Source: Deltaproteobacteria bacterium (GTDB taxonomy: Bacteria; Desulfobacterota; Syntrophia; Syntrophales; UBA8958). Taken from it: DNA of 50,972 bases. Shown one piece after another: positions 16,164-36,264 of this stretch. Both the position numbers and the translations under genes were made by a program. The notes beneath the pieces are model-generated. The model was not told the DNA's origin, did no database searches, and worked only from the letters and a program-made list of their open reading frames with translations. The stretch spans positions 1 to 50,972 of the forward strand of contig JAPLJZ010000174.1 in assembly GCA_026388335.1 (NCBI GenBank), in the 5' to 3' direction. How positions within the stretch are numbered: position 1 is the stretch's first letter; the number at the start of each line of letters is the position of its first letter.

Positions 16164-19100
16164 CTATCTGTATTTACGTACCTGCCCGGTGAAGATCACA
16201 TAGAGGGAGGGCAGGAGGAACAACGTCACCATCACACCTACCGCCAGCCCGCCGATAGCGCCAACCGCCATGGGCTGGAGCATATCCCCGCCCTCCTCGA
16301 TATTGAGGGCCAGGGGGATGAGCCCGGCGATGAAACAGAATGAGAGCATCAGGACCGGACGCAGGCGAATCTTGGCCGCGGCGATTATCGCCTCTGCCAC
16401 GGGCAGTTTATCATCGGCTCGTAGCGATTCAGCGAAAGTGATGAGCAGGACGCCCTGATTGACCGTCAGCGCAATGACCACCAGAACGCCGATAATAAGC
16501 GTGGCGCCCATGGGAATGCCGGTCAGGAAAAGGGCCGCAACCGTCCCGGCCAGGCAGAAGGGGATCACCGAGAGCACAAGCGCCGGAAGCTTCAGGCTGT
16601 TGAACTGGACTGCCAGAACGGCAAAGGCGAAGAACAGGGCGAATCCCATAATCATCACCACCGCCCTCGTCATGTCCCGCATCATCTGTGCCTGGCCGCC
16701 GTAGAAGACCTCGTAGCCCCCCGGCAGTTCGAACTTCCCCATGGCCTTCTTCAATTCGTCGAGGGCCTGCCCGACGCTCACATCGGCGGCGTCACCGCGG
16801 ATAATTACCTCTTTGACCTGATCTTCCCGGAGGATCTCGACGGGTCCGGTGGCCTGGACAACCTGGGCGACGTCCCGCAATCTCAGATAACCGCCCCGGG
16901 AACGGCTGATGATGAGATTCTCGACATCCTGCCGGGAAACGATATCCTTTTCGGGCATTCTCACACGGATGTTGTAAAAATCCTCTCCATCCTTGAAGCG
17001 CGTCGGCACGGCGCCGCTCAGGAGCGTCTGCGCCGCTGAAGCGACATCGGCCACGGTGACGCCGAGACTGGCGGCCCTGGTGCGATCGACGCGAATCTGG
17101 TATTCCGGTTTCGTCAAATCCATGGAAACGTAAACATTGCGAAAATACTTGAGCCCGTTCATGGTTTCCGAGGTCTTCCGGGCCAGATCGAAAAGGATCT
17201 TCATATCATCTCCTTTGATCTTTACCTCGATGTCCGCTTCGCCGATCTTGCGCATCCCCTTCATCTTCATCTGGGCGACGATAAGATTGCCCCCGGGAAC
17301 GGGGACCTTCGAGACCACTGACCTGACCTGCCTGATATATTCCCCGGTGCCGATCTTCCGCTTGTGACGGGGGACAAGCTGAATGTTGATTTCTCCCTCG
17401 TTGGCGATCTCAAAGGCATAGAGGCCCACCACCTTGGCCCCGGCCAGGGTGAAGTAACTTTCGATCAGAGGGTCCTTGGCGATTTTCCCCTCAATATCGC
17501 GGAGGATGCGATCCGTTTCGGCGACGGAGGCCCCAGTCGGGAGCTTCACCTTGACCAGGACCCGGCCGTCGTCCATGGCGGGGAGAAACTCGCTCCCCAC
17601 CCAGAAGAAGAGCAGGGCTGCCCCGGTCAAAAAGGCAGAAAACAAGCCCAGGATCACTTTCCTGCGGAAGAGCGCCGTCCTCAACAAGCCCTCGTAGCGT
17701 CCCTTGAGGCCTTCAAAAAACCGCTCGAAGAAACCAGACTCGGCTGATCGGGAGGCCCTTTCTCCCAGGAGGAGCGCCGTCAGCATGGGGGTAGCCGTCA
17801 GGGCCAGCAGCAGGCTGACCAGGACGATCCCGGCAATGACGAGGATCAACTCCTTGAACAGCAGGCTGATCAAACCAGGCACGATCAGAAAGGGAAGAAA
17901 AACGGCCAGAAAGGCAAGCGTCGCGGCAATAATGGCCGGACCGACCTGGGCGGCGCCGGAGACGGCCAGCGCTTCCATGGAACCCGCCTCACCTTCATGC
18001 CGCAGGCGGGTGATGTTTTCCACCACCACGATGGCGTTGTCCAACACGACCCCCAGGGCGACCACGAGCCCCCCGAGGGAAAAGATATTTAGGGAAAAGC
18101 CGGCCAGCTTCATCAGTGCGAAGTTGACGATCAGGGTGATCGGCAACACCAGCATCATGATCAGGGCCTGCCGCCAGCTTCCCAGGAAAAAATAAACCAC
18201 GAGGATGATGAGCACGGCGGCTTCGATGGCGGCGTTGCGGACCCCCTTGAGGGCGGCGGTAACGTAATCCGCCTGATTTTCCACAACGCCGAGGCGAATG
18301 TCGCCCGGGAGGGAAGCCTTCAAATCCCGGATTTTCCGTTCCACGGCTTGGGCGACTTCGACGGTATTGGCGTTAGCCTGTTTGATGATGCTCAGCTTGA
18401 CGCAGGCTTTCCCGCCGATGCGGGTGATTACCCGTGTCTCTTCATGACCGTCTTCAATCTGGGCCACATCACGCAGATAAACTTTTCCCCCCGCATCGCC
18501 CCCCTTCAGAACCACCGCCCTGATCTCCTCCAGCGAGCGGAACTCGCCTACCGTCCGGGCAATGAATTCGCGTTGGCCGACGGTGATCCGACCGCCGAAT
18601 TGTTCGATGTTTTCCTCCTGAAGCCGCTTGGTCACCGCCGGCAGGGAAAGTCCGTATTTTTCCAGGGCGGCGTTATCCAGATGGACAAGAATCTCTCGTT
18701 TGAGGCCCCCGGTAATATCCGTCCCGGCAACCCCCGGCACGGATATGATCTGGTTCTGGAGCCACTTGTCCACCCAGGTGCGGAGTTTGACCAGATCCCA
18801 CTGATCGGAAGAAACTGTAAGCTGAATCACGGGAAGTTGGGAGGGGTCGGCCTTAAACACGATGGGCGGATCGATATCCTTGGGCAGCTTCCTGGCCACT
18901 CTCGCCATCGCCGCCAGGGCGTCCTGGTAAGCGGTGTCAATGGAAACCCCGTACTGGAAGTTCGCCGTCAGCGTATACATGCCCTCGATAGAAGAAGATT
19001 CGAGATAGTCCAGTCCGTCAACCGACGCCATCTGTCGCTCGACGGGGTCGGCGACGTTCACGTCCAGTTCCTCTGGGGTGGCGCCGCGGGCATAGATATA

Positions 19101-19241
19101 GACCTTGATCATGGGATAGGTCATATCGGGAAGGAAATTAGTCGGCAACTGCCAAAGACCGTAGGCGCCCAGGATCGTAAGTGTTATAACGAGAACAGCG
19201 GTGGCGATGCGCCGTTTGACGGCCAGAGCGGTGATCTTCAT
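16164..19241 (-). CDS. RND efflux pump inner-membrane subunit
   Basis: Twelve-span proton-driven exporter of 1025 residues and the pump of a complete tripartite system. The first span starts near residue 13, followed by the porter domain, the internal duplication, and W-V-G-S-E-F-L-P-A-M-D-D-G after span 7. Span 4 reads V-V-L-D-N-A-I-V-V-V-E-N, with a single acidic residue in place of the D-D pair of AcrB-type drug pumps; it is also not the classical CzcA/CusA signature. The substrate class therefore stays open (drugs, lipids or metals). Its ATG overlaps the adaptor stop by four bases. Expression is likely driven by the sigma-54 promoter at 23028-23043. Confidence 0.9.
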   Translation of the reverse strand: MKITALAVKRRIATAVLVITLTILGAYGLWQLPTNFLPDMTYPMIKVYIYARGATPEELDVNVADPVERQMASVDGLDYLESSSIEGMYTLTANFQYGVSIDTAYQDALAAMARVARKLPKDIDPPIVFKADPSQLPVIQLTVSSDQWDLVKLRTWVDKWLQNQIISVPGVAGTDITGGLKREILVHLDNAALEKYGLSLPAVTKRLQEENIEQFGGRITVGQREFIARTVGEFRSLEEIRAVVLKGGDAGGKVYLRDVAQIEDGHEETRVITRIGGKACVKLSIIKQANANTVEVAQAVERKIRDLKASLPGDIRLGVVENQADYVTAALKGVRNAAIEAAVLIILVVYFFLGSWRQALIMMLVLPITLIVNFALMKLAGFSLNIFSLGGLVVALGVVLDNAIVVVENITRLRHEGEAGSMEALAVSGAAQVGPAIIAATLAFLAVFLPFLIVPGLISLLFKELILVIAGIVLVSLLLALTATPMLTALLLGERASRSAESGFFERFFEGLKGRYEGLLRTALFRRKVILGLFSAFLTGAALLFFWVGSEFLPAMDDGRVLVKVKLPTGASVAETDRILRDIEGKIAKDPLIESYFTLAGAKVVGLYAFEIANEGEINIQLVPRHKRKIGTGEYIRQVRSVVSKVPVPGGNLIVAQMKMKGMRKIGEADIEVKIKGDDMKILFDLARKTSETMNGLKYFRNVYVSMDLTKPEYQIRVDRTRAASLGVTVADVASAAQTLLSGAVPTRFKDGEDFYNIRVRMPEKDIVSRQDVENLIISRSRGGYLRLRDVAQVVQATGPVEILREDQVKEVIIRGDAADVSVGQALDELKKAMGKFELPGGYEVFYGGQAQMMRDMTRAVVMIMGFALFFAFAVLAVQFNSLKLPALVLSVIPFCLAGTVAALFLTGIPMGATLIIGVLVVIALTVNQGVLLITFAESLRADDKLPVAEAIIAAAKIRLRPVLMLSFCFIAGLIPLALNIEEGGDMLQPMAVGAIGGLAVGVMVTLFLLPSLYVIFTGQVRKYR

Positions 19242-20377
19242 CGTGGCGTTCCTTTCGTAGCTTCCGGCGCCGGCTTGGCTGTATCCGCCTTGACGTCCGG
19301 CCCGCCTTTCTTCGCCAGCAGCTTGACCGCCGCCCCATCTTTCAATTTTTCATTGCCCGCCACGACAATCTGCTCTCCCGGCTTTACTCCACTGACGATC
19401 TCGATCAGGCGACCCGCTTCGATCCCCGTCGTGACCTTTCTTGTTACGGCTTTTCCATCCTGGACGACGAAGGCCATCCGCTCGCCCGTTGCATTGACGA
19501 GGACGGCCTCCGCGGGGACCAGTACGGCGTCTTCATGTGTCTCCACACGCATTTTGATTCTGGCAAACAAGCCTGGCGTGAGGGAAATATCCTCCCCTAT
19601 CTTGGCCTCGACAAGGCGGGTGCGAGTGCTCGGGTCGAGCTTGGGATAGATGCGTAGAATCCTGGCCGGAAAGGTTTTCCCTGGGTAGGCGTCCAGGGTT
19701 ACGGAAATAGTATTCCCGTTCCCGATATGGACATTTTGCGATTCCGACTCGGGGATGGCGAAGCGGACGACAAGACTCACCGGGTCAAATATTTCCACTA
19801 GCGGCGTCCGGGGCGCTACATAATCTCCTTCGATAACCATGACCTTGGAGACGACGCCGCTCCAGGGAGCCCTGATCATATAGTCCGTGCGGTTCTCCTC
19901 AAGCCTGGCCAACTGCGCCTTGACGTTTTCATGCCTGGCCAGAGCGATTTCCAACTGATCGCCGGAGATGGCGCCGTTTTCGACCAGTTTTTTCACCCGG
20001 TCCAGTTCACCCTTCTCCCTGGTCAGATCCGCTTTTGCTGCTGCATATTGAGCGGTAACAGTCTTGTCCCTGCCGATGCAGACGATCTGCTGGCCTTTTT
20101 TAACGTGGTCACCCTCACGGACAGAGGCGCCGCAGTTGATAATCGGCCCTTCGGCAGGAGACGACATCCGGGCAATTCTCGCCGCTTCCACCGTGCCGTC
20201 CGGTTCGATAGCCCGACTGATGGATCCGGACGTTGCCGCCGCGACCAATACGGAGGGAAGGCTTTTTGCTGTGGATGTTTCCGGCGCTTTACTCTGTCCT
20301 GCATATTTCCATACTGAAAAGGCGGCAATAATCAGTAGTATAAGGATGCCAGTGCTAAGTAAGATCCTTTTTTTCAT
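19238..20377 (-). CDS. RND periplasmic adaptor (membrane fusion protein)
   Basis: Adaptor of 379 residues linking pump and outer-membrane channel. An N-terminal membrane anchor (about residues 4-24) is followed by a lipoyl half (G-T-V-E-A-A-R), an alpha hairpin (residues about 110-160), the second lipoyl half ending in I-R-A-P-W-S-G-V-V-S, and beta-barrel and membrane-proximal domains with G-L-F-A-R-I. It starts inside an AGGAGG context shared with the TolC stop codon (ATGA overlap) and its own stop overlaps the pump start, so translation is coupled across all three genes. Confidence 0.9.
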   Translation of the reverse strand: MKKRILLSTGILILLIIAAFSVWKYAGQSKAPETSTAKSLPSVLVAAATSGSISRAIEPDGTVEAARIARMSSPAEGPIINCGASVREGDHVKKGQQIVCIGRDKTVTAQYAAAKADLTREKGELDRVKKLVENGAISGDQLEIALARHENVKAQLARLEENRTDYMIRAPWSGVVSKVMVIEGDYVAPRTPLVEIFDPVSLVVRFAIPESESQNVHIGNGNTISVTLDAYPGKTFPARILRIYPKLDPSTRTRLVEAKIGEDISLTPGLFARIKMRVETHEDAVLVPAEAVLVNATGERMAFVVQDGKAVTRKVTTGIEAGRLIEIVSGVKPGEQIVVAGNEKLKDGAAVKLLAKKGGPDVKADTAKPAPEATKGTPR

Positions 20378-21780
20378 AAACTTCCTCCTGTCGCCAATTT
20401 CAGTCTGGCCGTGGATATGTGATAATCGATGCAGGAACGGCAGTTGTTGGTTTCCGCCTGGAGCAAGGCGCTCTGGGCGTCGAGGACGTCTGTGATGTTC
20501 CCCCTGCCCAGATCGTACTTCAACGACTCGATGCGCAAGCTCTCCTTCGCCTGCTCAATAGATTTTTCCGTCGCCTTGAAGCGCTCCCTGGCAGACAGCA
20601 CGTCGAGGAGGGCGGACTCCGCTTCCTGCCGGATCTGGAGATCCAGTTTTCTCAACCGGTCCCGGGCCGCGGCGAGAATAGCCATCTCTTCACTGACTTT
20701 CGCTGAAACACGCCCGCCCTCGAACAGGGGCACCGACATGATGACGCCGATGGAGCCGACGTCCTCCGTCTGGCTGGTGCCTTTCCCCACATCGGACGGG
20801 TCCGGGGCGTTTCTCACGCCGTATGTCCCTACCAGGTTGATACTGGGTAAGTGCCCCGCCCTCGCTACGGCCACCCGCAAGGTTTGGGCATCCAACCTGT
20901 CTTTGGCTGCCTGGTAGTCGGGGCGGTTTTTCAAAGCCCCTTCAATCAACATTCCCTTGTCGAATGTTCCTGCCGCCGGTTTTTCGGCCTGGTCGTCCAG
21001 CCGTACGTTTTCCGGGACGGCTTCGTAGCCCATCAGGCTGAAGAGAAGGCGTTTCTGTACGGCCAACACATTTTCTTCCTTGATGATATTCTGATTCAGG
21101 TCAACGATGCGAACCTCGGTACGAAGGAGATCAACCTTGGCGACCCGCTGGGCGTCAAAGAGTTGTGAAACACGTTTTCTTTGCTCTTCGAGGGCTTGGC
21201 GAGAGAATTCCAGGGAGGCGATAATCTTCTGCTGACCGAGAACGGAAAAATAAACGCCTGTGACGCTGTAGATCAGTTCATCCCGTGTCCGGATGAACTT
21301 TTTCTTCTCCGCTTCGGAGAGCTTGCCTACGGCATCGGCTTCACTGGTGATGCGCCCGCCGGCATAAAGAGTCAGTCTCGCCACGAGGTCGCCCCGGAGG
21401 ATACTGCGGTCGAAGACGCCCAGCTCCCCGTTGTACCGGGCCTGGATCAACCGCTGGGGATCCACGTAGCGATTTGCCCCACCTTCGGCGCTTATCTGAG
21501 GCCAGAAGGCGGATTTGGCGCCGTCGAGCCTGGAATCGGCCGCTGCTATATCCCACTTTGCGGCGGCAATCTCGGGATTCTTTTCGAGGGCGATCTCGAT
21601 ACAGCGCGCCAGTAAAAACAGCTCGCCTGAGGCCGCGACGCCGGGCGGCGTTTGGTATATGACGGGCTTTACATTGTTTTCCGCCGCAATGGCTATGCCG
21701 ATGCCAGCCGGGATGACAACGGCGGCAAGGGTGATCAGAACGGCAACTAATAACATCGTTTTTATTTTGACTCGGATCAT
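20374..21780 (-). CDS. TolC-family outer-membrane efflux channel
   Basis: Outer-membrane channel protein of 468 residues from the ATG at 21780, which has a GGAG site and places the signal peptide at the N-terminus; an upstream start at 21837 adds 19 unlikely residues. Two repeated OEP domains are visible, with long helical stretches around K-N-P-E-I-A-A-A-K-W-D and again around L-K-N-R-P-D-Y-Q-A-A-K-D-R. The C-terminal half contains S-V-P-L-F-E-G-G-R, a common TolC-family motif. It completes the tripartite exporter with the adaptor and pump encoded downstream. Confidence 0.9.
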   Translation of the reverse strand: MIRVKIKTMLLVAVLITLAAVVIPAGIGIAIAAENNVKPVIYQTPPGVAASGELFLLARCIEIALEKNPEIAAAKWDIAAADSRLDGAKSAFWPQISAEGGANRYVDPQRLIQARYNGELGVFDRSILRGDLVARLTLYAGGRITSEADAVGKLSEAEKKKFIRTRDELIYSVTGVYFSVLGQQKIIASLEFSRQALEEQRKRVSQLFDAQRVAKVDLLRTEVRIVDLNQNIIKEENVLAVQKRLLFSLMGYEAVPENVRLDDQAEKPAAGTFDKGMLIEGALKNRPDYQAAKDRLDAQTLRVAVARAGHLPSINLVGTYGVRNAPDPSDVGKGTSQTEDVGSIGVIMSVPLFEGGRVSAKVSEEMAILAAARDRLRKLDLQIRQEAESALLDVLSARERFKATEKSIEQAKESLRIESLKYDLGRGNITDVLDAQSALLQAETNNCRSCIDYHISTARLKLATGGSL

Positions 21781-21924
21781 GGGTCTATAACTCCAAATAT
21801 ATTCATTACTGATAATATATATAAAGCAGTATAACAATTAAACGGCAAAGATCTTGCGCGGGTTCCATCGGTTCTGATTCATGACCATTATTGGGGGAAA
21901 TGGATATCCTGTGAGACCGGTTGA

Positions 21925-21970: not shown

Positions 21971-22429
21971 TTATCTTCGCCAGCCGGCCCAGACGGGGAC
22001 GCCGGAGGCGTCTCTGAGGACAAGAACACTGTCGCCTTTCTTCACCTCCGCAGCAAGCACGACGGACTTGCCAGCCAGGGTGGTGCGGACCCCTTTGACT
22101 TCCACCTTATCGCCCTTGACAATTTTTGCATCGAGGCGTTCCATGTACCAGCTTGGTCCGAGGTGGATGGTGACCGTTTCTGTTTCCGTTTTGACCACAA
22201 GGGCGATCCCCTGGTTCATCCGTTTCATGGGAACCGTCTGTTCCAGGCCAATCACTTCACCCGAGAAAGTTTCGAGATTGGCGGGGTTATACATCCCCTG
22301 GTAGGGGGTGCCCATGCCCCAGCCGCCGCTCCCGCGCCCGCCCAACTTCCCCGGGCCAGCAAGGGCCAAAGATGAAGTCAAAAGAAACACCATTACGATC
22401 ATCAAACCCGTAAGCCACTTTTTTTTCAT
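21971..22429 (-). CDS. Secreted OB-fold-like protein, paralogue of 26209-26736
   Basis: Periplasmic protein of 152 residues with a signal peptide ending near L-A-L-A-G. A glycine-rich linker leads to a beta-rich domain from about residue 55: F-S-G-E-V-I, E-T-V-T-I, G-P-S-W-Y, G-D-K-V-E-V-K-G and V-L-R-D-A-S-G-V-P-V-W. The pattern suggests a small OB-fold of the DUF5666 or YdeI/YgiW kind; ligand unknown. The same motifs in the same order occur in the protein encoded at 26209-26736. It is the second gene of the sigma-54 operon, 46 bp after the Spy-like gene. Confidence 0.7.
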   Translation of the reverse strand: MKKKWLTGLMIVMVFLLTSSLALAGPGKLGGRGSGGWGMGTPYQGMYNPANLETFSGEVIGLEQTVPMKRMNQGIALVVKTETETVTIHLGPSWYMERLDAKIVKGDKVEVKGVRTTLAGKSVVLAAEVKKGDSVLVLRDASGVPVWAGWRR

Positions 22430-22475: not shown

Positions 22476-22985
22476 TTAGTAACCTCTCATGCCCATACCC
22501 TGGCCCATTCCGGGAGCCATGACCATGCCGCCCCCCTGACCTCTCATGCCTTTAGCGTAACCGTAACCTCGCCCCGCTCCGTAAGCCTGGAATTTAGTCA
22601 GCTGCTCCGGGGTCAGAACCTTTTGCGACTCCAGCCGATAGGAAGTCTGTTTATCCGCGAGTTGATCACGGAGGTTCCGGACTTCCGTCTGCACGCTCAG
22701 GATCTTCTTTTGATCCACGGTTTGCTGCAGCCACAGGAGCCTGAGTTCGCCTCTTTTGCTGTAAATCTGATCCTGAAGGGGTTTGGCTTCCCGCAGATGG
22801 TTCTCCCGTAGGGAGGTGAGTTTTGCGGACTGTTCCGCCGTCAGATTTAAACCCGGCGTAGCGGTAAGGTCATAATAGCCCCCGACTGGATAACCGCCCC
22901 ACGATCCCCGGCGGGCCTCCGCCGGGGACGATACCACGACTGCCGCGATGGCGATCACTGCCATTACTGCCATCAGTTTCTTCAT
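22476..22985 (-). CDS. Spy/CpxP/ZraP-like periplasmic stress protein
   Basis: Secreted helical protein of 169 residues, first gene of the efflux operon. After a signal peptide (ending S-P-A-E-A) come two LTxxQ motifs, L-T-A-E-Q near residue 53 and L-T-P-E-Q near residue 131, bracketing helices rich in Arg, Lys, Glu and Gln. This is the layout of the Spy/CpxP/ZraP (metal resistance) family of periplasmic chaperones. The Gly/Met-rich tail (G-M-R-G-Q-G-G-G-M-V-M) may bind metal. In enterobacteria zraP is under the sigma-54 activator ZraR; the sigma-54 promoter upstream of this gene fits that model. Confidence 0.8.
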   Translation of the reverse strand: MKKLMAVMAVIAIAAVVVSSPAEARRGSWGGYPVGGYYDLTATPGLNLTAEQSAKLTSLRENHLREAKPLQDQIYSKRGELRLLWLQQTVDQKKILSVQTEVRNLRDQLADKQTSYRLESQKVLTPEQLTKFQAYGAGRGYGYAKGMRGQGGGMVMAPGMGQGMGMRGY

Positions 22986-23027: not shown

Positions 23028-23043
23028 AGCAAGAGACATGCCA
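23028..23043 (-). promoter_or_regulatory. Sigma-54 promoter of the Spy-like/OB/RND operon
   Basis: On the minus strand the sequence is TGGCATG-TCTC-TTGCT, an almost exact match to the sigma-54 consensus, with GG and GC at the required spacing. The predicted start is near 23017, giving a leader of about 30 bases before the ATG at 22985. A sister promoter is at 29831-29846. Confidence 0.85.
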
Positions 23044-23126
23044 AGACGGCAATATTTCATAACCTACTTATCTTGTTGTGTTTATGCTTCATTCGAAAGC
23101 CATTCGCAGGAAAGATAAATAGCTAT

Positions 23127-23177
23127 ATGGATATATTCGATCCATTTAGAAGTATCCAGTTGCATAAAAAGTATCCA
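23127..23177. promoter_or_regulatory. Upstream activator array (four GGAT/ATCC boxes), copy 1
   Basis: Four boxes occupy 51 bp: ATGGAT at 23127, ATCCAT at 23140, GTATCCAG at 23152 and AGTATCCA at 23170. The first two form an inverted pair and the last two a direct repeat 18-19 bp apart. The array lies 84 bp upstream of the sigma-54 promoter. The array at 29928-29978 has the same boxes at offsets 0, 13, 25 and 43. It is very likely the binding site of a sigma-54 enhancer-binding protein. Confidence 0.8.
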
Positions 23178-23288
23178 CATGTCGAAGAATGCCATTCTAT
23201 CCTCTTAACGGACAGCTTAAACATATTCCCACAATACGCTACGACAAGTAATGGGACTGAAAACGCGGCGGCAAAAATATTCTATCAA

Positions 23289-23317
23289 ATTAATAGTTGA
23301 CATAATCAACAATTAAT
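23289..23317. promoter_or_regulatory. Operator palindrome upstream of the MarR gene
   Basis: An inverted repeat with 12-base arms (ATTAATAGTTGA and TCAACAATTAAT, 11 of 12 paired) around CATAA lies 72 bp before the MarR start. Its core GTTGA-N5-TCAAC recurs at 23884-23900 before the permease gene. Best read as the autoregulatory operator of the MarR protein. Confidence 0.7.
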
Positions 23318-23388
23318 GAAAAAAGGCTGCTAGAGATTCCAGTGGTACCACATCGAAGAATTTCGGTAATGGAAAGGAGGATGAGTTG

Positions 23389-23850
23389 ATGGACGAACAG
23401 GCCAGACAGCTTGCCGGGTTGATTGAAAATATGATGTATTGTTTCGGTACGCAAAGCCTGGACGGGGAATGCTGCGAAAACATTTCCCATGGCGAATTTC
23501 GCGCCCTTCATACCGCATTGCACCAGAGCACATGTACTATGCAGGATATTGCGAGGAAGGCGGTTGTAACAAAAAGCGGGGCGACCCGCATTGTCCACCG
23601 CTTGGAAGAGAAAGGGCTAGCGCGTCGCGAGCAGGATCAAAAAGATGGACGGATCTGTTGCGTCACATTGACGGAAGAGGGCAAATCGCTAATGAATCGG
23701 ATAGATGACCAGCTCACGAATAAGATGCAAACGATTCTGGCGACGATGGACCCGGCCATGCGGGAAATACTCATCATAAGCCTTGGGGCTTTTCTCCAGG
23801 CTGCACAAGGGCAAATGACCGCCAGGGATAAACGACTGGAAGTAGATTAG
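23389..23850 (+). CDS. MarR-family regulator with vicinal cysteine pairs
   Basis: Winged-helix repressor of 153 residues, starting at the ATG at 23389, eight bases after AAGGAGG. The recognition region is M-Q-D-I-A-R-K-A-V-V-T-K-S-G-A-T-R near residues 51-67 and the wing follows at Q-K-D-G-R-I-C-C-V. It has six cysteines, unusual for the family: Cys18, Cys28-Cys29, Cys49 and Cys90-Cys91. The two vicinal pairs, one at the start and one in the wing, suggest thiol-based sensing of an arsenic- or heavy-metal-like inducer. It precedes the cysteine-rich permease gene on the same strand and is flanked by two matching operators. Confidence 0.85.
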   Translation: MDEQARQLAGLIENMMYCFGTQSLDGECCENISHGEFRALHTALHQSTCTMQDIARKAVVTKSGATRIVHRLEEKGLARREQDQKDGRICCVTLTEEGKSLMNRIDDQLTNKMQTILATMDPAMREILIISLGAFLQAAQGQMTARDKRLEVD

Positions 23851-23883
23851 ACCAAGTAGCGAAAAAATCGGCTAACCGATAAC

Positions 23884-23900
23884 GGTTGAAATACTCAACC
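23884..23900. promoter_or_regulatory. Second GTTGA-N5-TCAAC operator, upstream of the permease
   Basis: A perfect inverted repeat GGTTGA-AATAC-TCAACC lies 33 bp after the MarR stop and 100 bp before the permease start. It shares the core and spacer length of the palindrome at 23289-23317, so the MarR protein probably controls the permease as well as itself. Confidence 0.7.
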
Positions 23901-23999
23901 ATCATTGAAATTACAAATTCATCCGGCAGACGACGAAGAAGCGGACATACGTCTCTCAGGGAAACAAGAAATCAAAGGATGAACTCAGGAGGAAGTATA

Positions 24000-24425
24000 A
24001 TGTTTGAGATGAATAATTTTGTTATTGCCGGCCAATTTTTTTTGGTTATTGCCGGAGAGCTTATCTTGATATTTGTTGCCGTTTCCTTTCTTATCGGAAT
24101 GCTGACGGAATATCTTCCTCCGTCCCGCATCCGGGATTTTCTGTCCAACAAGCTGACCTGGGTGCAATACCTCCTCGGGGCTGGTCTGGGGGCCATCACT
24201 CCTTTCTGTTCCTGTTCCACTGTTCCGATCACGGCCGGATTGCTAAAGGGCGGTGTCCCTTTTGGCCCCACCATGGCCTTTCTTTTTTCCTCCCCCGTGC
24301 TGAACCCGATCATTATCGCATTGCTGCTCTCCCTCCTTGGCTATAAAGTTACTGCGGTTTATGTAGTTATCACCTTTTTCGGTTCCATGGTTGCAGCGGC
24401 CCTGCTGTCAAAACTCGAAATGTAA
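24000..24425 (+). CDS. Permease (DUF318/YraQ-ArsP family), N-terminal half, cut by an in-frame stop
   Basis: First half (141 residues) of a membrane permease of the family that includes ArsP. It contains the family hallmark I-T-P-F-C-S-C-S-T-V-P near residue 62 and S-S-P-V-L-N-P after it, with four hydrophobic spans. A GGAGG site lies in front of the ATG at 24000. The frame ends at a TAA at 24423, yet the same frame continues open to 25121 and encodes the rest of the permease. Full-length relatives, such as the one at 44288-45238, are single chains. A nonsense mutation, a sequencing error or a true two-chain protein are all possible. The stop is TAA, so selenocysteine does not apply. Confidence 0.75.
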   Translation: MFEMNNFVIAGQFFLVIAGELILIFVAVSFLIGMLTEYLPPSRIRDFLSNKLTWVQYLLGAGLGAITPFCSCSTVPITAGLLKGGVPFGPTMAFLFSSPVLNPIIIALLLSLLGYKVTAVYVVITFFGSMVAAALLSKLEM

Positions 24426-24443
24426 AACCAAGTCAAACCACTG

Positions 24444-25121
24444 GTGGATATAAAGCCATCCTGTTGCACCGGTGAAGCAAATACGATCGCTCCGCCGGTG
24501 TTAATTCAGCCGGTAGCCGCCGGTTGTTGCACTGCCGATAGCGGTAAGGAGCCCTTAACCTTGATAAACTTTTCCACCCTGCCTGCGTCCGGCGGCTGCT
24601 GTGCAACAGCTCCAACGACGGCCACAGGAAAACCAACGCTGGCGTCATGTTGTGAGGTCAACTTCACCGCGGACAACGGGGCAACCGATTGGGAGCGGAC
24701 GTCATTCAAGGATAAATTGAAAAGGGCCTCGTTTTCAGCGGTTGACACCTTCAAGGGGGTGTTCTGGTACCTCTTGTTGGGCGCGGGAATTGGAGCCTTT
24801 ATCTACGGCTTTTTCCCGCAGGATCTCGTCGTTAGATGGGCGGGTCCAGATAACCCCTGGTCCATTCCCATCGCGGCTGCTATCGGCGTGCCCATGTACA
24901 TCCGGGCGGAAACGGTGATTCCCATCAGCGCCGCCCTCGTTGGAAAAGGCATGGGGGTGGGCACGGTGCTGGCGCTCATAATCGGCGGGGCCGGGGCTAG
25001 TATCCCGGAGATGATCATTCTCGGTTCGATGTTCAAGAAGAAACTGATAATTGCTTTTGCTCTGAACGTTTTCCTGGTTGCCATCGTTGCAGGCTATCTT
25101 GTCGATATCCTGATATATTAG
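24444..25121 (+). CDS. Permease C-terminal half with a linker of four vicinal Cys pairs
   Basis: Second half (225 residues from a GTG at 24444) in the same frame as the preceding part. The first 75 residues form a linker with four Cys-Cys pairs at about residues 7-8, 28-29, 52-53 and 69-70, which relatives such as 44288-45238 lack. Then come the second permease repeat and its spans: F-K-D-K-L-K-R-A-S-F, Y-L-L-L-G-A-G-I-G-A, G-V-P-M-Y-I-R-A-E-T and G-A-S-I-P-E-M-I-I-L. No ribosome site precedes the GTG, so the piece was probably made as part of one 373-residue chain. The cysteine pairs could hand a thiophilic metal or metalloid to the pore. Confidence 0.75.
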   Translation: MDIKPSCCTGEANTIAPPVLIQPVAAGCCTADSGKEPLTLINFSTLPASGGCCATAPTTATGKPTLASCCEVNFTADNGATDWERTSFKDKLKRASFSAVDTFKGVFWYLLLGAGIGAFIYGFFPQDLVVRWAGPDNPWSIPIAAAIGVPMYIRAETVIPISAALVGKGMGVGTVLALIIGGAGASIPEMIILGSMFKKKLIIAFALNVFLVAIVAGYLVDILIY

Positions 25122-25150
25122 AATGTTTTTTATTATCGCCGGACAGGATG

Positions 25151-26212
25151 TTATTTCCCCTTCTCCATTTCATAAAGCGCCAGGAGCTCTTGGGACTCGG
25201 CCCTTGCCTCGTGGATAGGCTTGCCGCCGCCGGCTAACAGTAGTTTCCCGAATCGGATGGGGACGCCGTAATTCCCGCCCAGGAATTCTTCCAGGTAGGC
25301 GGAGTTTACTCCAATAACCGTGCCGCTCCAATCCAGAAGCGGTCCGCCGCTGCCGCCGCCAATGGTCCGGGCATCATAAACCAGGAGGTGCGGCAGGACA
25401 TCCCAGAGAAAACCGCTGGTAATCGAAGCGCGCAGCCGTTTCTGCTCGGACAGTCGTTCCGCTGTTTTATAGGTGCAATCCCCTGTTTGTTCTTCCAGAA
25501 CAGCCTGTTCCCCTTCATCCAGTTTAGCCATGACCGCTTCGAGCCCCGTCGGGTAGCCAATAAGGAGGATGGGCTGTCCTTCCTCTGACTTGTCAGGATG
25601 GGGATGCAAGGATAGGGGTTGTGCAGCGGGCGTCCAGCTGACAGTCCTGACCAGAGCAATGTCTTGTTTCTCATCGATGCGCAGGACCTCAATGGGAACG
25701 CCTGCTGAGCGTTCCTGGAAAAAGGCGCGCAACCTTAAAAAAACGGGTTTCAGGCCGGCCGCTAAAAGGGGCGCGCTCTGATCGTCTTCCCACCAGGGTT
25801 CGGCAATATGGCGGTTGGTCAACATCTCTCCCTTGGGACCGACTAAAAAGGCCGTCCCGCAATAATTTGTGAAGGCAATCGGCCCGGTTCCCTTCACATC
25901 CACCAGGGGAATTCCCTGGGGATCGGCCACAGGTTCACCCAGCTCACTGACGACCTGTCGGAGGGGACGTCCATCTTTATCCACAAAAGTATATGTTCCC
26001 CATATAAAGGCTACTGCCCCCCTCGTCCTGGCCAAAAGGTCCACCATATTCCTCTGACGGGCCTCTACGGCTTCCATGCGCCTTTCGAGGTTCCCGACAT
26101 GTTGCGAGAGGTCTGCCAAGGCATCCTTACGAGTGACCGCGCTTGCTGAACATCCTACCATGACGACAATCGCCGCCACAAAAAGCAACCGGATAAAGGC
26201 ATTGCTGATCAT
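25151..26212 (-). CDS. Lipoprotein trypsin-like serine protease
   Basis: Envelope-anchored S1-type protease of 353 residues. A lipobox V-G-C places lipidated Cys21 at the N-terminus. A short coiled coil (about residues 31-62) is followed by the protease domain with His135 in T-N-R-H-I-A, Asp184 in Q-D-I-A-L-V-R and the nucleophile Ser288 in G-G-G-S-G-G-P. No PDZ domain is seen, unlike DegP. It is the last gene of a protease operon; its ATG overlaps the OB-fold stop (ATGA). It probably degrades damaged or misrouted proteins near the membrane. Confidence 0.85.
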   Translation of the reverse strand: MISNAFIRLLFVAAIVVMVGCSASAVTRKDALADLSQHVGNLERRMEAVEARQRNMVDLLARTRGAVAFIWGTYTFVDKDGRPLRQVVSELGEPVADPQGIPLVDVKGTGPIAFTNYCGTAFLVGPKGEMLTNRHIAEPWWEDDQSAPLLAAGLKPVFLRLRAFFQERSAGVPIEVLRIDEKQDIALVRTVSWTPAAQPLSLHPHPDKSEEGQPILLIGYPTGLEAVMAKLDEGEQAVLEEQTGDCTYKTAERLSEQKRLRASITSGFLWDVLPHLLVYDARTIGGGSGGPLLDWSGTVIGVNSAYLEEFLGGNYGVPIRFGKLLLAGGGKPIHEARAESQELLALYEMEKGK

Positions 26213-26736
26213 GGTTTCCCCTCCTGGGTTCCTTCCTTGTCGAAGCGCCGACCGGACGACCAGCGGGGACGACCGTTTTCATCCCTAAGCTCCAACAGAT
26301 GACCCGTGCGCATATTCTTTATAGTCGCCGCCGCCAGATAAATTTTCCCTTCCCGGGTTTTCATTTTTGAGCCCTTGACCTCAAGCTTGTCACCGATCTT
26401 GATATCGGCACCCTGGCTTCGGAAATACCAGTTAGGTCCCATCGTGACAGTGACGGTCTCGCTACCGGTCTCCATGCGCAACGAAGAACCACCGCCGCCG
26501 CGCGTTGAAAGATCTACATGTAAAACAACACCACTGACCTCGACAACAGTGGCACGGTCATAGCCGGGCGTAACGGGGGAACCCCAATACCATCCCTGCG
26601 CCGCCGCTATCGCCGGGAAGGCAAATAACCATAAAGCCAGGGCAAAAAACATTCTCCAATCATTACCAATCGTCTTTGCCTCACGGCGGCCGAACCGTGG
26701 TTCCCGTAAATTGCTTTTCTGCATCCACGCCTTCAT
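26209..26736 (-). CDS. Secreted OB-fold-like protein, paralogue of 21971-22429
   Basis: Protein of 175 residues from the ATG at 26736, which has AAAGGAG eight bases upstream and lies 13 bp after the M16 stop; a longer version from 26793 would overlap that gene. A hydrophobic signal segment (about residues 30-48) precedes a beta-rich domain: V-S-G-V-V-L, E-T-V-T-V, G-P-N-W-Y, G-D-K-L-E-V-K-G and L-R-D-E-N-G-R-P-R-W. The same motifs in the same order mark the protein at 21971-22429. Both genes are under sigma-54 promoters with the same activator array, so they probably do related envelope jobs. Confidence 0.7.
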   Translation of the reverse strand: MKAWMQKSNLREPRFGRREAKTIGNDWRMFFALALWLFAFPAIAAAQGWYWGSPVTPGYDRATVVEVSGVVLHVDLSTRGGGGSSLRMETGSETVTVTMGPNWYFRSQGADIKIGDKLEVKGSKMKTREGKIYLAAATIKNMRTGHLLELRDENGRPRWSSGRRFDKEGTQEGKP

Positions 26737-26749
26737 CTTAAGTACTCCT

Positions 26750-28204
26750 TTAGAAACCGTCGCTCTTGATGTCTTTTTCGGAAAGTTCGCCATATTTTTT
26801 TACCTGGTCACGGATCGCTACGGCTTTCCCAATCAGGACGAATTGCAGGTTACCTTTAGGGAAGTGCTCCGCAATAACTCCCCTGGCTTTCTCAACGGTT
26901 ACGTCCTCGACATTTTTTTGAAAATTGTTAACGAAGGAGGCGTCGAAATCATAGACAAACATGGCAGCGAGCAGACTTGCCAGACTCCCCGGGGTTTCGT
27001 AAAGGGGAGGAAATTGACCGATGAGGTACTTTTTGGCGGCGCTCAGCGTTTCCTCATCCACACCTTGGATATGGAGCCGGTACAGGACGTCATGGGCAAG
27101 ATCGAGGGCGGCGGCGGTGGATTCCGTACGGGTAAAGCTGCTAATTGCGAAGGTTCCGGATGTCTTGAAGGTATCGAAATAGCTGCTTGCACGGTAAGTA
27201 AGGCCGGCGTCAACACGGAGCGCGTCATTTAACCAGGAGGTAAAGCGGCCGCCGAGAATCGCATTGACCACCTGTACCGCCACATAATCATGATGATTCC
27301 GCGGTATGCCCAGGCCGCCGAAGGCGAACTGGGTTTCCGTTGCATCGCTTTTATTGACCAGCAGAACCCGGGACTTGGCAAAGACTGGCAGCGGTGTTTG
27401 TTCTTGTGGCAGCGGCGAATTTTCTTTCCCTCGCCAGCCCGCAAAGGACTCCAGAACCTTCTCTTTCATCGGCCCGATCTGAAAATCTCCAACGATCACA
27501 AGGGCCGATCCTTCCGGCCGGTAATGGGCATTATAAAAGGCCTTGGCTTCAGTGCTCCTGATTTTCTTGACGGCGGCACGGGTGCCGTAAATAGGATTTC
27601 CATACCCATGCTTCCCGAAAATGAACTTCTTGAAATAGGAGCCCAGGACAAGGGAGGGCTGCTCTTTTGCCTGCACAAGTTCTAGCAGAAGACGCTTTTT
27701 TCTCTTTTCAAATTCCAACGGACCGAAAGCGGCGTTTTGGATCACTTCCTTCAATATGGGAAACACCTGATCCTGGTCCGTGTTAATAAAAGACATGGAA
27801 ATGCCTGCCGTATCGAGATCCGCGTAGGCATAATAATTGGCCCCCAGAAATTCCAGTTTCTCTTCAATTTGTCTTTTACTGTAACTTTTAGTTCCCGAGA
27901 AAAGCGCCTCGGCAGTTAGATAGGCCAGACCGGGTTTCCCGCCGTCTCTTAAGGCCCCGGTGGGAAACACTGCGGATATGTATATCAGGGGCACGCTGTG
28001 GTGTTCCATCAGATATACGGTCATGCCATTTTTCAGCTTGATTGTCTCATAGGCGGGCAGCGTAAAGGAAGGAGTTTTGCGGTGCGCGGCATAAACATTA
28101 GCCACCGGCAAAGTAAAGCAGACCATTGACATCCAGGCCCCCAAAAAGGCCATGATGAGTATTCTCAAAAACAGGTTGCGGCTGCGTCTTTTTTTCAAGA
28201 TCAT
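26750..28204 (-). CDS. M16-family protein, inactive-type subunit
   Basis: Pitrilysin-family protein of 484 residues with a long N-terminal signal or anchor (hydrophobic residues about 11-38). The M16 fold is recognisable (Y-E-T-I-K-L-K-N-G-M-T-V-Y, G-G-K-P-G-L-A-Y-L-T-A-E-A-L-F-S-G-T) but the H-x-x-E-H zinc site is missing: the aligned segment is L-A-Y-L-T. The C-terminal R/Y-type M16 half is retained. In two-chain M16 systems an inactive subunit pairs with an active one, and the active partner is encoded directly upstream with an ATGA overlap. Confidence 0.85.
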   Translation of the reverse strand: MILKKRRSRNLFLRILIMAFLGAWMSMVCFTLPVANVYAAHRKTPSFTLPAYETIKLKNGMTVYLMEHHSVPLIYISAVFPTGALRDGGKPGLAYLTAEALFSGTKSYSKRQIEEKLEFLGANYYAYADLDTAGISMSFINTDQDQVFPILKEVIQNAAFGPLEFEKRKKRLLLELVQAKEQPSLVLGSYFKKFIFGKHGYGNPIYGTRAAVKKIRSTEAKAFYNAHYRPEGSALVIVGDFQIGPMKEKVLESFAGWRGKENSPLPQEQTPLPVFAKSRVLLVNKSDATETQFAFGGLGIPRNHHDYVAVQVVNAILGGRFTSWLNDALRVDAGLTYRASSYFDTFKTSGTFAISSFTRTESTAAALDLAHDVLYRLHIQGVDEETLSAAKKYLIGQFPPLYETPGSLASLLAAMFVYDFDASFVNNFQKNVEDVTVEKARGVIAEHFPKGNLQFVLIGKAVAIRDQVKKYGELSEKDIKSDGF

Positions 28205-29529
28205 TTCCTCTCGCTTTTTTCCATGATCCCGACGGTGCGGTTGGTCTTCCGGAAATATTTGGCGGCCGCGCCCTGGATATACGCTGCCGTCACTTGCTTA
28301 TAGGCATCCGTTGCTGTGAAGAGCTTTTGATAACCGCCGGAAAAGATCTCATAGGTCCCGATCAGATCGGCTTTATTACTCATCGTTTCCAGGGAACGGT
28401 AAAAGGAGGCGACCACGTTGTTTTGGGCTTTCCGGAGTTCTTTTTCCGTTACGCCCCGGTTGATTACTTTATCTATTTCCATGAAAATTGCATTTTCCAG
28501 GGTATTCACGCTCACACCGTCAGTACAGATGGCGTAAACATAGAATAGTGTCGGGTCCAGCGCCTGGGGCATGTAGGTTGATATTTCCGTTGCCAGTTGT
28601 TTTTCGCTGACCAGGGTGCGGTAAAGTCGCGATGATTTACCGGTGGAGAGGATGGAACTCAATAGATCGAGGGCGTAATAATCGGCGGTTCCGGTTTCCG
28701 GCACATGATAGGCGATGAGGATATGGGGGGAAGAGACGTCTTTATAGACGAGAAGCCTTTTCTCGCCCCTTTGCTCTGGTTCCCGTGTGTGCACGGGGCG
28801 GGGTGGCAGGCGGGCGGGGAGGGGTTCCAGATACCTTTCCGCCACGGCCTTAACCTGCGCCAAGGTCACATCACCAACAACAACGGCGACGGCGTTATTC
28901 GGCGCGTAGTACCGATCAAAATATTCCTTTATATCGCGGTGCTGCCAATTCCTGATATCCGATTCATAGCCGATGATCGGCCAGCGATAGGGGTGCGACT
29001 GATAGGCAACGGCGCGGAGTTGATCATACAGAAGCTCGTAATCGCTGTTTTCATAGCCCGTTGTATACTCCGACAAGACGACGCCCCTTTCACTTTCCAC
29101 TACTTTCTCATCAAGGGCTAGGCTACATATCCGGTCCGCCTCCATTTCGAAGATCAATTCGAGGGCGGATTTGGGGACCCAATCCTGGTAGGAGGTGACA
29201 TTCTCGGTCGTATAGGCGTTACTGGAGCCCCCAGCGTTTTCCAGGACCAGGTCGAACAGTTTCGGGCCGTACTTTGCGGCGCCGTTGAACATCATGTGTT
29301 CGAGAAAGTGGGATAACCCCGTAATCCCTGGATATTCATTCCGGGAGCCGACCTTGAAGAAGATTTGCAGCGTGACATTGGGAATCCCGTGATCTTCCAG
29401 AACCAAAACCTTCATCCCGTTTTTCAGGGTAAAGGTCTGCACGTCTGCGACCGCAGGCATGGCGTGGAGCGGGGAAGCTGCCGCTGTCAGTAAGAACGCG
29501 GACAGTAATATGGTCAGGATGCGATTCAT
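28201..29529 (-). CDS. M16-family zinc metallopeptidase, active subunit
   Basis: Secreted pitrilysin-type protease of 442 residues from the ATG at 29529. A signal peptide ends near P-L-H-A-M. The zinc site H-F-L-E-H lies at about residues 74-78, and the third ligand Glu is in S-E-R-G-V-V-L-S-E about 75 residues later. The start codon shares one base with the stop of the preceding short gene (TGATG), and the stop overlaps the second M16 gene, so the three are translated together. It likely forms a heterodimer with the inactive M16 chain to clear peptides in the envelope. Confidence 0.9.
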   Translation of the reverse strand: MNRILTILLSAFLLTAAASPLHAMPAVADVQTFTLKNGMKVLVLEDHGIPNVTLQIFFKVGSRNEYPGITGLSHFLEHMMFNGAAKYGPKLFDLVLENAGGSSNAYTTENVTSYQDWVPKSALELIFEMEADRICSLALDEKVVESERGVVLSEYTTGYENSDYELLYDQLRAVAYQSHPYRWPIIGYESDIRNWQHRDIKEYFDRYYAPNNAVAVVVGDVTLAQVKAVAERYLEPLPARLPPRPVHTREPEQRGEKRLLVYKDVSSPHILIAYHVPETGTADYYALDLLSSILSTGKSSRLYRTLVSEKQLATEISTYMPQALDPTLFYVYAICTDGVSVNTLENAIFMEIDKVINRGVTEKELRKAQNNVVASFYRSLETMSNKADLIGTYEIFSGGYQKLFTATDAYKQVTAAYIQGAAAKYFRKTNRTVGIMEKSERK

Positions 29530-29747
29530 CAAACCTTACTGAAGTTGGGAGTCCAAGCTCCCCGGCTGAGGAGGAAAGCTGCGCCGAGCAACCGCTCGCA
29601 AGAGGCGCCCCGTCCCACGACGCCAAGTCCGAGCAACCTGGACAGACCGGCCCATTCTTCCCAGGGACGGGAAAAGACCATTTCGGCAATGAACAGCGAC
29701 GCAATAAGGAAAGTGATTATCAGCAGTCCCAGGATTTTTCCTTTCAT
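29529..29747 (-). CDS. Short membrane or secreted protein heading the protease operon
   Basis: A 72-residue protein with a strong hydrophobic segment at about residues 6-25 (I-L-G-L-L-I-I-T-F-L-I-A-S-L-F). The rest is moderately hydrophobic and includes one Cys. It is the first gene after the sigma-54 promoter, has a TAAGGAGG-type ribosome site, and is coupled to the M16 gene by a TGATG junction. I do not recognise it. It may be a membrane anchor or a small modulator of the proteases. Confidence 0.6.
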   Translation of the reverse strand: MKGKILGLLIITFLIASLFIAEMVFSRPWEEWAGLSRLLGLGVVGRGASCERLLGAAFLLSRGAWTPNFSKV

Positions 29748-29830
29748 GACATCTAACCTCCTTATAGCTATGTTTCTGTTTTTATTTCAATTCATTCTTT
29801 AACGCCCGTCTTGTCCTTTGGCTTACATAA

Positions 29831-29846
29831 CGCAAGAGCTGTGCCA
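29831..29846 (-). promoter_or_regulatory. Sigma-54 promoter of the protease operon
   Basis: On the minus strand TGGCACA-GCTC-TTGCG matches the sigma-54 consensus, with GG and GC at the correct spacing. The predicted start is near 29820, leaving a leader of about 70 bases. It is the sister of 23028-23043. Confidence 0.85.
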
Positions 29847-29927
29847 TGCCCTATACAATATACAGTGTATCGTAATCATGTGGGTATTTGGCGGTGGTAT
29901 TCGATAAGCGCCGGGCACGCTTATTAT

Positions 29928-29978
29928 ATGGATAAAAAGAATCCATATTTACGTATCCAGATGACTAATAAGTATCCA
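29928..29978. promoter_or_regulatory. Upstream activator array (four GGAT/ATCC boxes), copy 2
   Basis: ATGGAT at 29928, ATCCAT at 29941, GTATCCAG at 29953 and AGTATCCA at 29971 repeat the array at 23127-23177 with identical offsets. It lies 82 bp upstream of the sigma-54 promoter, the usual place for an enhancer-binding protein. Apart from the rhodanese end and a short gene-free part at 29980-30110, nothing else is seen in this spacer. Confidence 0.8.
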
Positions 29979-30111: not shown

Positions 30112-30561
30112 TTAAGGTTTCATGTCGTTAATAAAAGCTTTTGCCCGGTCTCCGCGCAGATAGTCGGCCAGCCCGAGCAGTCCCTCGACAAGGTAACGTG
30201 AACGGTAGCCCTGCAAGGTCAGATAGGTCCTGGCAATCTCGGCGCGATCGTAGTGGGGGCAAACAGTGACAATAATTTTCGATTTATCTATCTCTTTAAG
30301 CCGGTCGGGAAGTTCGTTGAGGGGGATGTTCTTGATGAAACCAAAGCGCCAGGCCTGGTACTCTTCGGGAAAACGAATGTCGATGATCTGCGCCTGCCCT
30401 TGTTTGTAAAGATTAAGCATTTCCTGAATGCCGATTTTCATGTCGCTACGTTCCCGATAGTCAAACACCCTGAGATAATTATCGAAAGTTAGCGATTCCG
30501 CCGCTAGGGCGGGCGCGCCCATCAGAAAACAGGTCAGAAGAGTTGCCCAGAAGATTTTCAT
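30112..30561 (-). CDS. Periplasmic rhodanese-like sulfurtransferase
   Basis: Secreted single-domain rhodanese of about 149 residues from the ATG at 30561, which follows a GGGAG site. The signal peptide ends at A-L-A-A-E. The active loop is C-P-H-Y-D-R-A with the catalytic Cys after I-I-V-T-V, and the CDC25-like entry I-I-D-I-R-F-P-E-E-Y is clear. It could move sulfane sulfur in the periplasm. Its neighbours upstream are VKOR and DsbA genes, pointing to a common thiol-redox function. Confidence 0.8.
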   Translation of the reverse strand: MKIFWATLLTCFLMGAPALAAESLTFDNYLRVFDYRERSDMKIGIQEMLNLYKQGQAQIIDIRFPEEYQAWRFGFIKNIPLNELPDRLKEIDKSKIIVTVCPHYDRAEIARTYLTLQGYRSRYLVEGLLGLADYLRGDRAKAFINDMKP

Positions 30562-34866: not shown

Positions 34867-36264
34867 TTAATGATCCCGATGGAGATCGTGTTTCTTGATC
34901 TTCCTCCAAAGGGTGGTGCGGCTGACGCCGAGCTGACGGGCCGTGTTCACACGGTTGCCGCCCAGCTCCTTCAGGGTCTCCCGGATGAGCTTCCCCTCCG
35001 AAGACGCCAGGGGTGCCGGTTCTACCGGAATGCGATCATCACGATTCGTCTTTTCAAGAAAATCATGGGGCAAGTGCTTTTCTTCAATCTGGACGCCGCG
35101 GCACAGGACGCAGGCGTGTTCCAGAATGTTTTCCAGTTCCCGGATATTGCCAGGGAAGAGGTAATTCATGAGGCGAGCCATCACACCTTCGGAAACGCCG
35201 GATATTTGCCTGCCCTTGAGGGCGTTCAGGCGGGTCATGATGTTTTCTGTGAGGAGGGGGATGTCTTCCTTCCGTTCGCACAGGGGCGGAAGATCGATCT
35301 TGATGATGTTGATGCGGTAGTAGAGGTCCTCGCGGAACAGACCGTCCCGGATCATGGCGGTGATATCCCGGTGGGTAGCCGCCACAATCCGGACATTGAC
35401 CTTCACAGGCGTAACGCTGCCCAGGGGGACGAAGACCTGGTCCTCCAGAACGCGCAGGAGCTTGACTTGGAGGGATGGCGAGGTGTCGCCGATTTCATCG
35501 AGGAAAATGGTCCCCCCATCGGCCAGGGAGAAGCGTCCCGGCTTGTCTTTTTTGGCGTCCGTAAAGGCCCCCCGGACGTATCCAAAAAGCTCAGATTCCA
35601 GCAGGGTGTCGGGTATGGCTCCGCAGTTGACCTTGACGAAGGGCTTTTCTTTTCTCATGCTCAGATCGTGAACCGCCAGAGCCAAGAGACCTTTTCCTGA
35701 TCCGCTGGGTCCCTGGACCAAGAGATGGCTGTCGCTCTCGGCGATGTCCGGGAGGATCTCGAATATATCCTGCATCCGCGGGCTCTTGCTGATCATATCC
35801 CCCAAGCTGTACCGACCGACGACGGCCTTACGGAGGGTCTCAATCACTGAAAGGTCTCGGAATATCTCCATCGCTCCAACAACCTCGCCAAGGCGGTTCC
35901 TGATTAGAGCCGTTGTTGCACTGACGGAGATTTCCCTGCCTCCCTTGGTAATGATAACGGCGGGATGATTATAGATCGGCTCACCTGTTTTCAATGTCCG
36001 TTCTAGGGGACAGTTGGTCTGGCAGGTGCTGGACCGGAGGATGTCAAAGCAGTATTGGTTCACAGCCTCCTGGAAGGTGAATCCTGTAATCTCTTCGGCG
36101 GCGCGGTTGAAGAACGTATTGATTCGGCGCTCAAGATCCACGGTAAAAACGCCGTCCGTCATGCTCTCCAGGATGGCGCAGCAGGGTAGACCGTCGTCTC
36201 CGCTCCGGCACGGCGCAGAACTCTGTACAAATATTTCATTCTTTTTACGAGTTATTCCGGGCAC
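34867..36264 (-). CDS. PAS-domain sigma-54-dependent activator
   Basis: Enhancer-binding protein of 465 residues. The N-terminal PAS domain (about residues 25-145) holds Cys72, Cys81 and Cys85 in the pattern C-x8-C-x3-C-P-L, which may bind an Fe-S cluster or metal or sense redox state. The AAA+ domain has Walker A at 185-192 (G-P-S-G-S-G-K-G), the sigma-54 contact loop G-A-F-T-D-A at 232-237 (usually G-A-F-T-G-A), and D-E-I-G-D. The C-terminal Fis-type helix-turn-helix is N-R-V-N-T-A-R-Q-L-G-V-S-R-T-T-L. It starts at a GTG 10 bp after the reductase gene upstream, and probably acts on the palindromes at 34812-34847. Confidence 0.9.
   Translation of the reverse strand: MPGITRKKNEIFVQSSAPCRSGDDGLPCCAILESMTDGVFTVDLERRINTFFNRAAEEITGFTFQEAVNQYCFDILRSSTCQTNCPLERTLKTGEPIYNHPAVIITKGGREISVSATTALIRNRLGEVVGAMEIFRDLSVIETLRKAVVGRYSLGDMISKSPRMQDIFEILPDIAESDSHLLVQGPSGSGKGLLALAVHDLSMRKEKPFVKVNCGAIPDTLLESELFGYVRGAFTDAKKDKPGRFSLADGGTIFLDEIGDTSPSLQVKLLRVLEDQVFVPLGSVTPVKVNVRIVAATHRDITAMIRDGLFREDLYYRINIIKIDLPPLCERKEDIPLLTENIMTRLNALKGRQISGVSEGVMARLMNYLFPGNIRELENILEHACVLCRGVQIEEKHLPHDFLEKTNRDDRIPVEPAPLASSEGKLIRETLKELGGNRVNTARQLGVSRTTLWRKIKKHDLHRDH

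Follow-up and report, generated by a model that had tools for sequence, protein, structure and literature searches.

The two arrays found upstream of sigma-54 promoters in the window (the whole 50,972-nucleotide stretch of contig analysed here) are very probably enhancers, as predicted from their sequence, for one NtrC-family activator, the ZraR-like protein P0003, which is encoded beside the ZraS-like kinase P0004 and a ZraP-like gene on contig C2. At least seven operons in this genome seem to be activated by one ZraR-like protein, and together they would constitute an expanded ZraSR-like envelope-stress regulon. The proposal of the earlier note that a single enhancer-binding protein (EBP) controls both operons in the window is thus strongly supported, since the same array with the same spacing stands at at least seven promoters here and at about 100 in relatives, with the promoter on the same side. 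A single stress regulator would then account for the control of two hitherto unexplained operons and of at least five others.

Both sigma-54 sites that had been reported on the minus strand were confirmed exactly, at 23028-23043 (TGGCATGTCTCTTGCT) and 29831-29846 (TGGCACAGCTCTTGCG), each with a GG-to-GC spacing of 10 bp. The four-box array described upstream of them, ATGGAT / ATCCAT / GTATCCAG / AGTATCCA, is likewise exact in both copies; its boxes start at 23127, 23140, 23152 and 23170 and at 29928, 29941, 29953 and 29971, giving the same offsets of 0, 13, 25 and 43. When up to three mismatches are allowed, the 51-bp pattern matches exactly these two places in the window (none in 100 shuffles) and only these two in the 4.06-Mb genome (none with the reversed control). 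The sigma-54 consensus alone, at two mismatches, is found 22 times in the window against 21.3 expected, which is not above chance, so that the evidence lies in the pairing of promoter with array. The four-box element is better read as five half-sites, namely two 17-bp dyads TGGATACttaTTATCCA and a central half-site. In the direction of transcription the order is TGGATAC-N4-(TATCCA, often degenerate), a TGGATAC half-site at +19 and a TGGAT-N6/7-ATCCA dyad at +32/33, with the dyad starts 32-33 bp apart. Array 1, a putative enhancer on the minus strand (23128-23177; genome-wide profile score 40.8 bits, E 8.9e-10), comprises dyad I TGGATACTTTTTATGCA (23161-23177), the TGGATAC half-site (23152-23158) and dyad II TGGATCGAATATATCCA (23128-23144), the end of which lies 84 bp from promoter 1. 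Array 2, also a putative enhancer on the minus strand (29929-29978; 46.2 bits, E 1.9e-11), comprises dyad I (29962-29978), the half-site (29953-29959) and dyad II TGGATTCTTTTTATCCA (29929-29945), which ends 82 bp from promoter 2.

All genes of the two operons are on the minus strand. Operon A begins with a gene (22476-22985) for a ZraP-like periplasmic protein (Metal_resist / LTXXQ), whose start codon lies 58 bp past the start of the -24 element. It is followed by genes encoding a hypothetical protein of 152 aa without a family match (21971-22429, overlapped by an antisense ORF), a TolC-type outer-membrane efflux protein (20374-21837), an RND periplasmic adaptor (19238-20377, scoring above the TIGR01730 cut-off) and an RND efflux permease (16164-19241). 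Operon B starts with a 72-residue ORF (29529-29747) that has a strong ribosome-binding site and a hydrophobic N-terminus (MKGKILGLLIITFLIASLF...), and continues with two M16 peptidases (28201-29532 and 26750-28204), a hypothetical protein (26209-26793) that is kept with the M16 pair in three relatives (G093, G091 and G001), and a trypsin-like serine protease with weak DegP/HtrA similarity (25151-26212). Between the two array operons, and divergent from operon A, are a MarR-family gene and a two-part permease on the plus strand (23386-25121); the N-terminal part of the permease (23886-24425) resembles the SaoE / SO_0444 Cu/Zn efflux proteins, and the second part occupies 24444-25121.

The search suggested earlier, for the array upstream of sigma-54 promoters across the whole genome, returned at least seven clear arrays with a relaxed pattern, not only the two in the window. 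With this relaxed half-site grammar the same array is seen on contigs C2, C193, C90, C20 and C127 as well, and each of the at least seven clear arrays is accompanied by a near-perfect sigma-54 promoter, the first base of the -24 element lying 132-146 bp past the array start. Eight places in the genome scored as significant with a sequence-only profile built from 51 arrays, among them a weaker, duplicated one on C90; the C127 array, clear by eye, is the sole one that the profile missed. The genes after the arrays encode ZraP-like proteins (operon A, C2 and C90), RND or TolC-type efflux components (operon A and C20), a ZraP-like protein followed by MacB-type ABC proteins (C193), an ECF sigma factor with a zinc-finger protein (C90), glycine-zipper and DUF6515 envelope proteins (C127), and M16 and serine proteases (operon B). 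In the C90 operon (L059:6667-7823) the genes for the ECF sigma factor and the zinc-finger (anti-sigma-like) protein precede a second ZraP-like gene and MacB-type genes, an arrangement in which sigma-54 may act through an ECF sigma factor in a cascade; in another genome (L308) an ECF sigma factor is encoded by the first gene past the array. The weaker C90 places, at 30119 and 30216 (L060:3740-4240), form a 97-bp direct duplication in which a degenerate array occurs twice before one sigma-54 site and a TPR-protein gene. Perfect dyads also occur at C40:34813 and C12:3424, but these two were not accepted as arrays because they have no sigma-54 promoter nearby and apparently lie inside genes. The genome is a draft with an estimated contamination of 4.9%, and the presence of rpoN in it is inferred from about 26 sigma-54 activator genes.

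Conservation was assessed with the gapped pattern and the sequence-only profile in place of the exact four-box pattern. The latter gave no match in the family outside its own genome, because relatives share the half-site grammar and not the exact letters. The profile found the array in 110 of 154 genomes of the order (E 0.01), and the gapped pattern in 53 of 155, with one site for the reversed control; two gapped-pattern sites (L080 and L081) were discarded, as they have no promoter and look like chance matches in coding DNA. The comparison of box spacing among relatives that the earlier note called for showed half-sites at 0 and +19 in all 51 arrays of the first set, though +17 to +20 had been allowed, and positions not used in the search are also conserved, such as C16 and the T, A, C and C of the last arm. 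Since the arrays were found without using promoters, the pairing with promoters is an independent test: 111 arrays had sufficient flanking sequence to be scored, and downstream of 102 of them the sigma-54 score is no lower than 18 out of 20.5, compared with one for the same window upstream. Arrays that are widespread without sigma-54 promoters, which the earlier note had named as evidence against its reading, are therefore not what is seen. Outside the order, only four of about 380 sampled genomes of the phylum gave a match at E 1e-4, and in four of the five outside-order matches inspected a strong sigma-54 site is preceded by an array-like element. The array motif can be searched for in uncultured bacteria of the phylum.

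Measured from the end of dyad II, the distances to the -24 element form three groups, 74-77, 82-87 and 92-98 bp, with almost none between; the C127 array, at 89 bp, is an exception. The resultant length of the distances peaks at 10.5-10.7 bp. Orthologous promoters are not independent, and the spacers were therefore clustered by similarity; the 35 spacer clusters gave an R of about 0.55-0.57 at 10.5-11 bp, a value reached by 2 of 20,000 random draws. The array-to-promoter distances follow the DNA helix, with a period that is not sharply resolved. About 100 natural enhancer-promoter pairs of what would be one regulator make an unusually clean data set on spacing and helical phase in sigma-54 activation.

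The search for a ZraR-like activator and its sensor kinase led to a pair adjoining one of the arrays: the array on C2 is flanked by a ZraP-like gene on one side and by a divergent ZraS/ZraR-like pair on the other. P0003, the regulator of this pair, combines a receiver domain with AAA+ and Fis-type HTH domains. The NCBIfam model that matches it best is ZraR (582 bits, below the equivalog cut-off of 760), and among PDB structures its best match is ZraR (1ojl). The kinase P0004 has sCache, PAS, HisKA and HATPase domains, with ZraS as its best NCBIfam model (431 bits, below the equivalog cut-off of 479), and the ZraP-like proteins score far under the NCBI ZraP cut-off. As none of the three equivalog cut-offs is reached, the system is called ZraPSR-like without a claim of equivalog status. 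The layout on C2 is of the ZraPSR type, with a divergent zraP-like gene and, in between, a sigma-54 promoter and predicted activator sites; no strong sigma-54 site facing zraS was found there. The C2 array ends about 30 bp before the likely zraS-like start codon (L058:5660-5740), and binding to it might repress zraSR and not activate it as in E. coli. The C2 ZraP-like gene is followed by one for an N-terminally extended DNA-bending protein of the HU family (L058:4270-4674); this neighbourhood is kept within the genus (G010, G006, G007, G004 and G008) and was not seen outside it.

Orthologues of P0003 occur across the order, and the nearest named ones are in Desulfobacterales and other deltaproteobacterial bins. 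A profile search of 19 orthologous loci placed the array just upstream of zraS in 14, all of which carry a zraP-like gene, and at the five loci without an array no zraP was found, one of these (G046) being cut by a contig end. Three further array-zraSR pairs are present in G000, G010 and G006. Across 31 genomes, 20 have both the P0003 orthologue and the array, four the orthologue only, one the array only (G023, probably owing to a contig end) and six neither (Fisher p = 0.0017, which is only a guide as the genomes are kin to each other).

The genome does encode other activators that the arrays might serve. The earlier note placed the activator outside the window; there is in fact a PAS-type sigma-54 activator within it (34867-36264, minus strand; TauE, DUF169, DsbD-like and thioredoxin genes lie around it), while the cognate one is most likely on C2. 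This PAS-type EBP and a NorR/FhlA-type EBP on C193 (6663-8306) are genuine sigma-54 activators near arrays, the latter 1.4 kb from the C193 array. However, across the order the array tracks the zraP-zraSR locus in orientation and distance and not these two EBP genes, and the first genes after arrays are nearly all ZraP-like, as in the ZraR precedent; it is therefore unlikely that either is the activator in question, and the C193 EBP was rejected as the cognate one. The C193 EBP (L035:6663-8306) has no recognised sensor domain and adjoins a YaaH-family gene. Somewhat less probable still is that several paralogous activators share the motif, so that the arrays would not form one regulon. The genome holds about 26 or more sigma-54 activator genes, and a motif common to two EBPs is known in Desulfovibrio vulgaris, for example DVU0946/DVU0539 (PMC4641369), but the closest other proteins in the genome share no more than 50% identity with P0003, and a single orthologue explains where arrays occur in nearly all of the genomes compared. 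That the two arrays are recently duplicated or a repeat element without a regulatory role can be set aside with near certainty: the copies are 6.8 kb apart on one contig, but they have only the boxes in common while their spacers differ, and other families of the order conserve the same boxes, in constant spacing and orientation and together with the promoter, which contradicts this reading.

The sequences themselves show the arrays, the promoters, their spacing, the gene content, the conservation and the linkage to zraSR. With P0003 as the activator, the binding, phosphorylation, signal and expression steps that we infer for the proposed regulon would run as follows. Envelope or metal stress would lead the kinase to phosphorylate the ZraR-like regulator, dimers of which would bind the two 17-bp dyads and the central half-site at their fixed spacing. 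The bound dimers would assemble into an AAA+ hexamer, which would contact sigma-54 RNA polymerase at -24/-12 from an enhancer held on a fixed face of the helix, and ZraP-like chaperones, efflux pumps and periplasmic proteases would be switched on together. The signal may be zinc, other metals or envelope damage, judging by the ZraSR family and the gene content. More tentatively, and with rather less confidence than we would need to favour it, the five-half-site enhancer might hold exactly three dimers, each on one TGGATAC box, whereby a single array would load a single hexamer, with its promoter a whole number of helical turns away; ZraR in this order could then be a multi-operon envelope-stress regulator, of which E. 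coli ZraR, with two dyads and few targets, would be a reduced version.

The closest known system is ZraP-ZraSR (HydHG) of E. coli and Salmonella, in which, as here, zraP and zraSR are divergent, ZraR is of the NtrC family, a sigma-54 promoter precedes zraP, an LTXXQ-type periplasmic protein is encoded, and there is a link to envelope stress (PMC7657598, PMC4987338). The zraP-zraS intergenic region of E. coli MG1655 contains two 17-bp dyads, TGAGTAAAAATGACTCG and CGAGTCATTTTTACTCG, upstream of the zraP sigma-54 promoter and 31 bp apart, compared with 31-33 bp here. In contrast, the half-sites are TGAGTA/GACTCG in E. coli and TGGATA/TATCCA here, the central half-site is absent in E. coli, and the distance to the -24 element is 41 bp at E. 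coli zraP as against 65-98 bp here. E. coli ZraR has been classed as a single-target regulator by gSELEX (PMC8249747), ChIP-exo adds only mgtA (PMC7657598), and 25 further ChIP-seq targets have been reported, as cited in PMC8249747; at least seven operons are predicted here. A ZraR-type regulator, usually seen with few targets, would head a regulon that comprises chaperones, efflux pumps and proteases. Most EBP regulons of D. vulgaris consist of one to four operons (PMC4641369). DVU3381 of D. vulgaris Hildenborough, filed under envelope stress response, has as its targets its own operon and DVU3384 (PMC4641369); a gel shift has been used to test its binding motif (PMC3333781). Like the system proposed here, DVU3382-DVU3381 / DVU3384 is a two-component sigma-54 regulator, with a small target set; the regulon predicted here is larger than the two target operons listed for DVU3381. 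No description of the array motif was found in the text, as distinct from the figures, of the literature accessible to us, and a search by letters is uninformative as GTATCCA also occurs in common miRNA primers.

Several fixed sites upstream of a sigma-54 promoter are also a feature of E. coli norVW, where they are thought to seed the NorR hexamer. This three-site enhancer differs from the arrays here in regulator class, motif (GT-N7-AC) and signal (nitric oxide).

Whether the array is absent from relatives that keep both operons, the outcome that the earlier note held would speak against it, has a mixed answer. Of the two arrays, the zraP-type one of operon A persists in G093 and G091, two genomes that belong to another family. 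In G093 the orthologues of the operon B proteases lie downstream of the zraP gene of this array on the same strand, and a single array could serve both functions there. At operon B itself the array is absent in G001, a member of the same family, where the operon begins 80 bp after a rhodanese gene; G001 has the ZraR-like orthologue and a zraSR locus without zraP. In G091 no array is listed on the 7.3-kb contig with the protease genes. The results for G001 and G091 indicate that operon B does not always have array 2, whose presence in the window is probably a local addition or retention.
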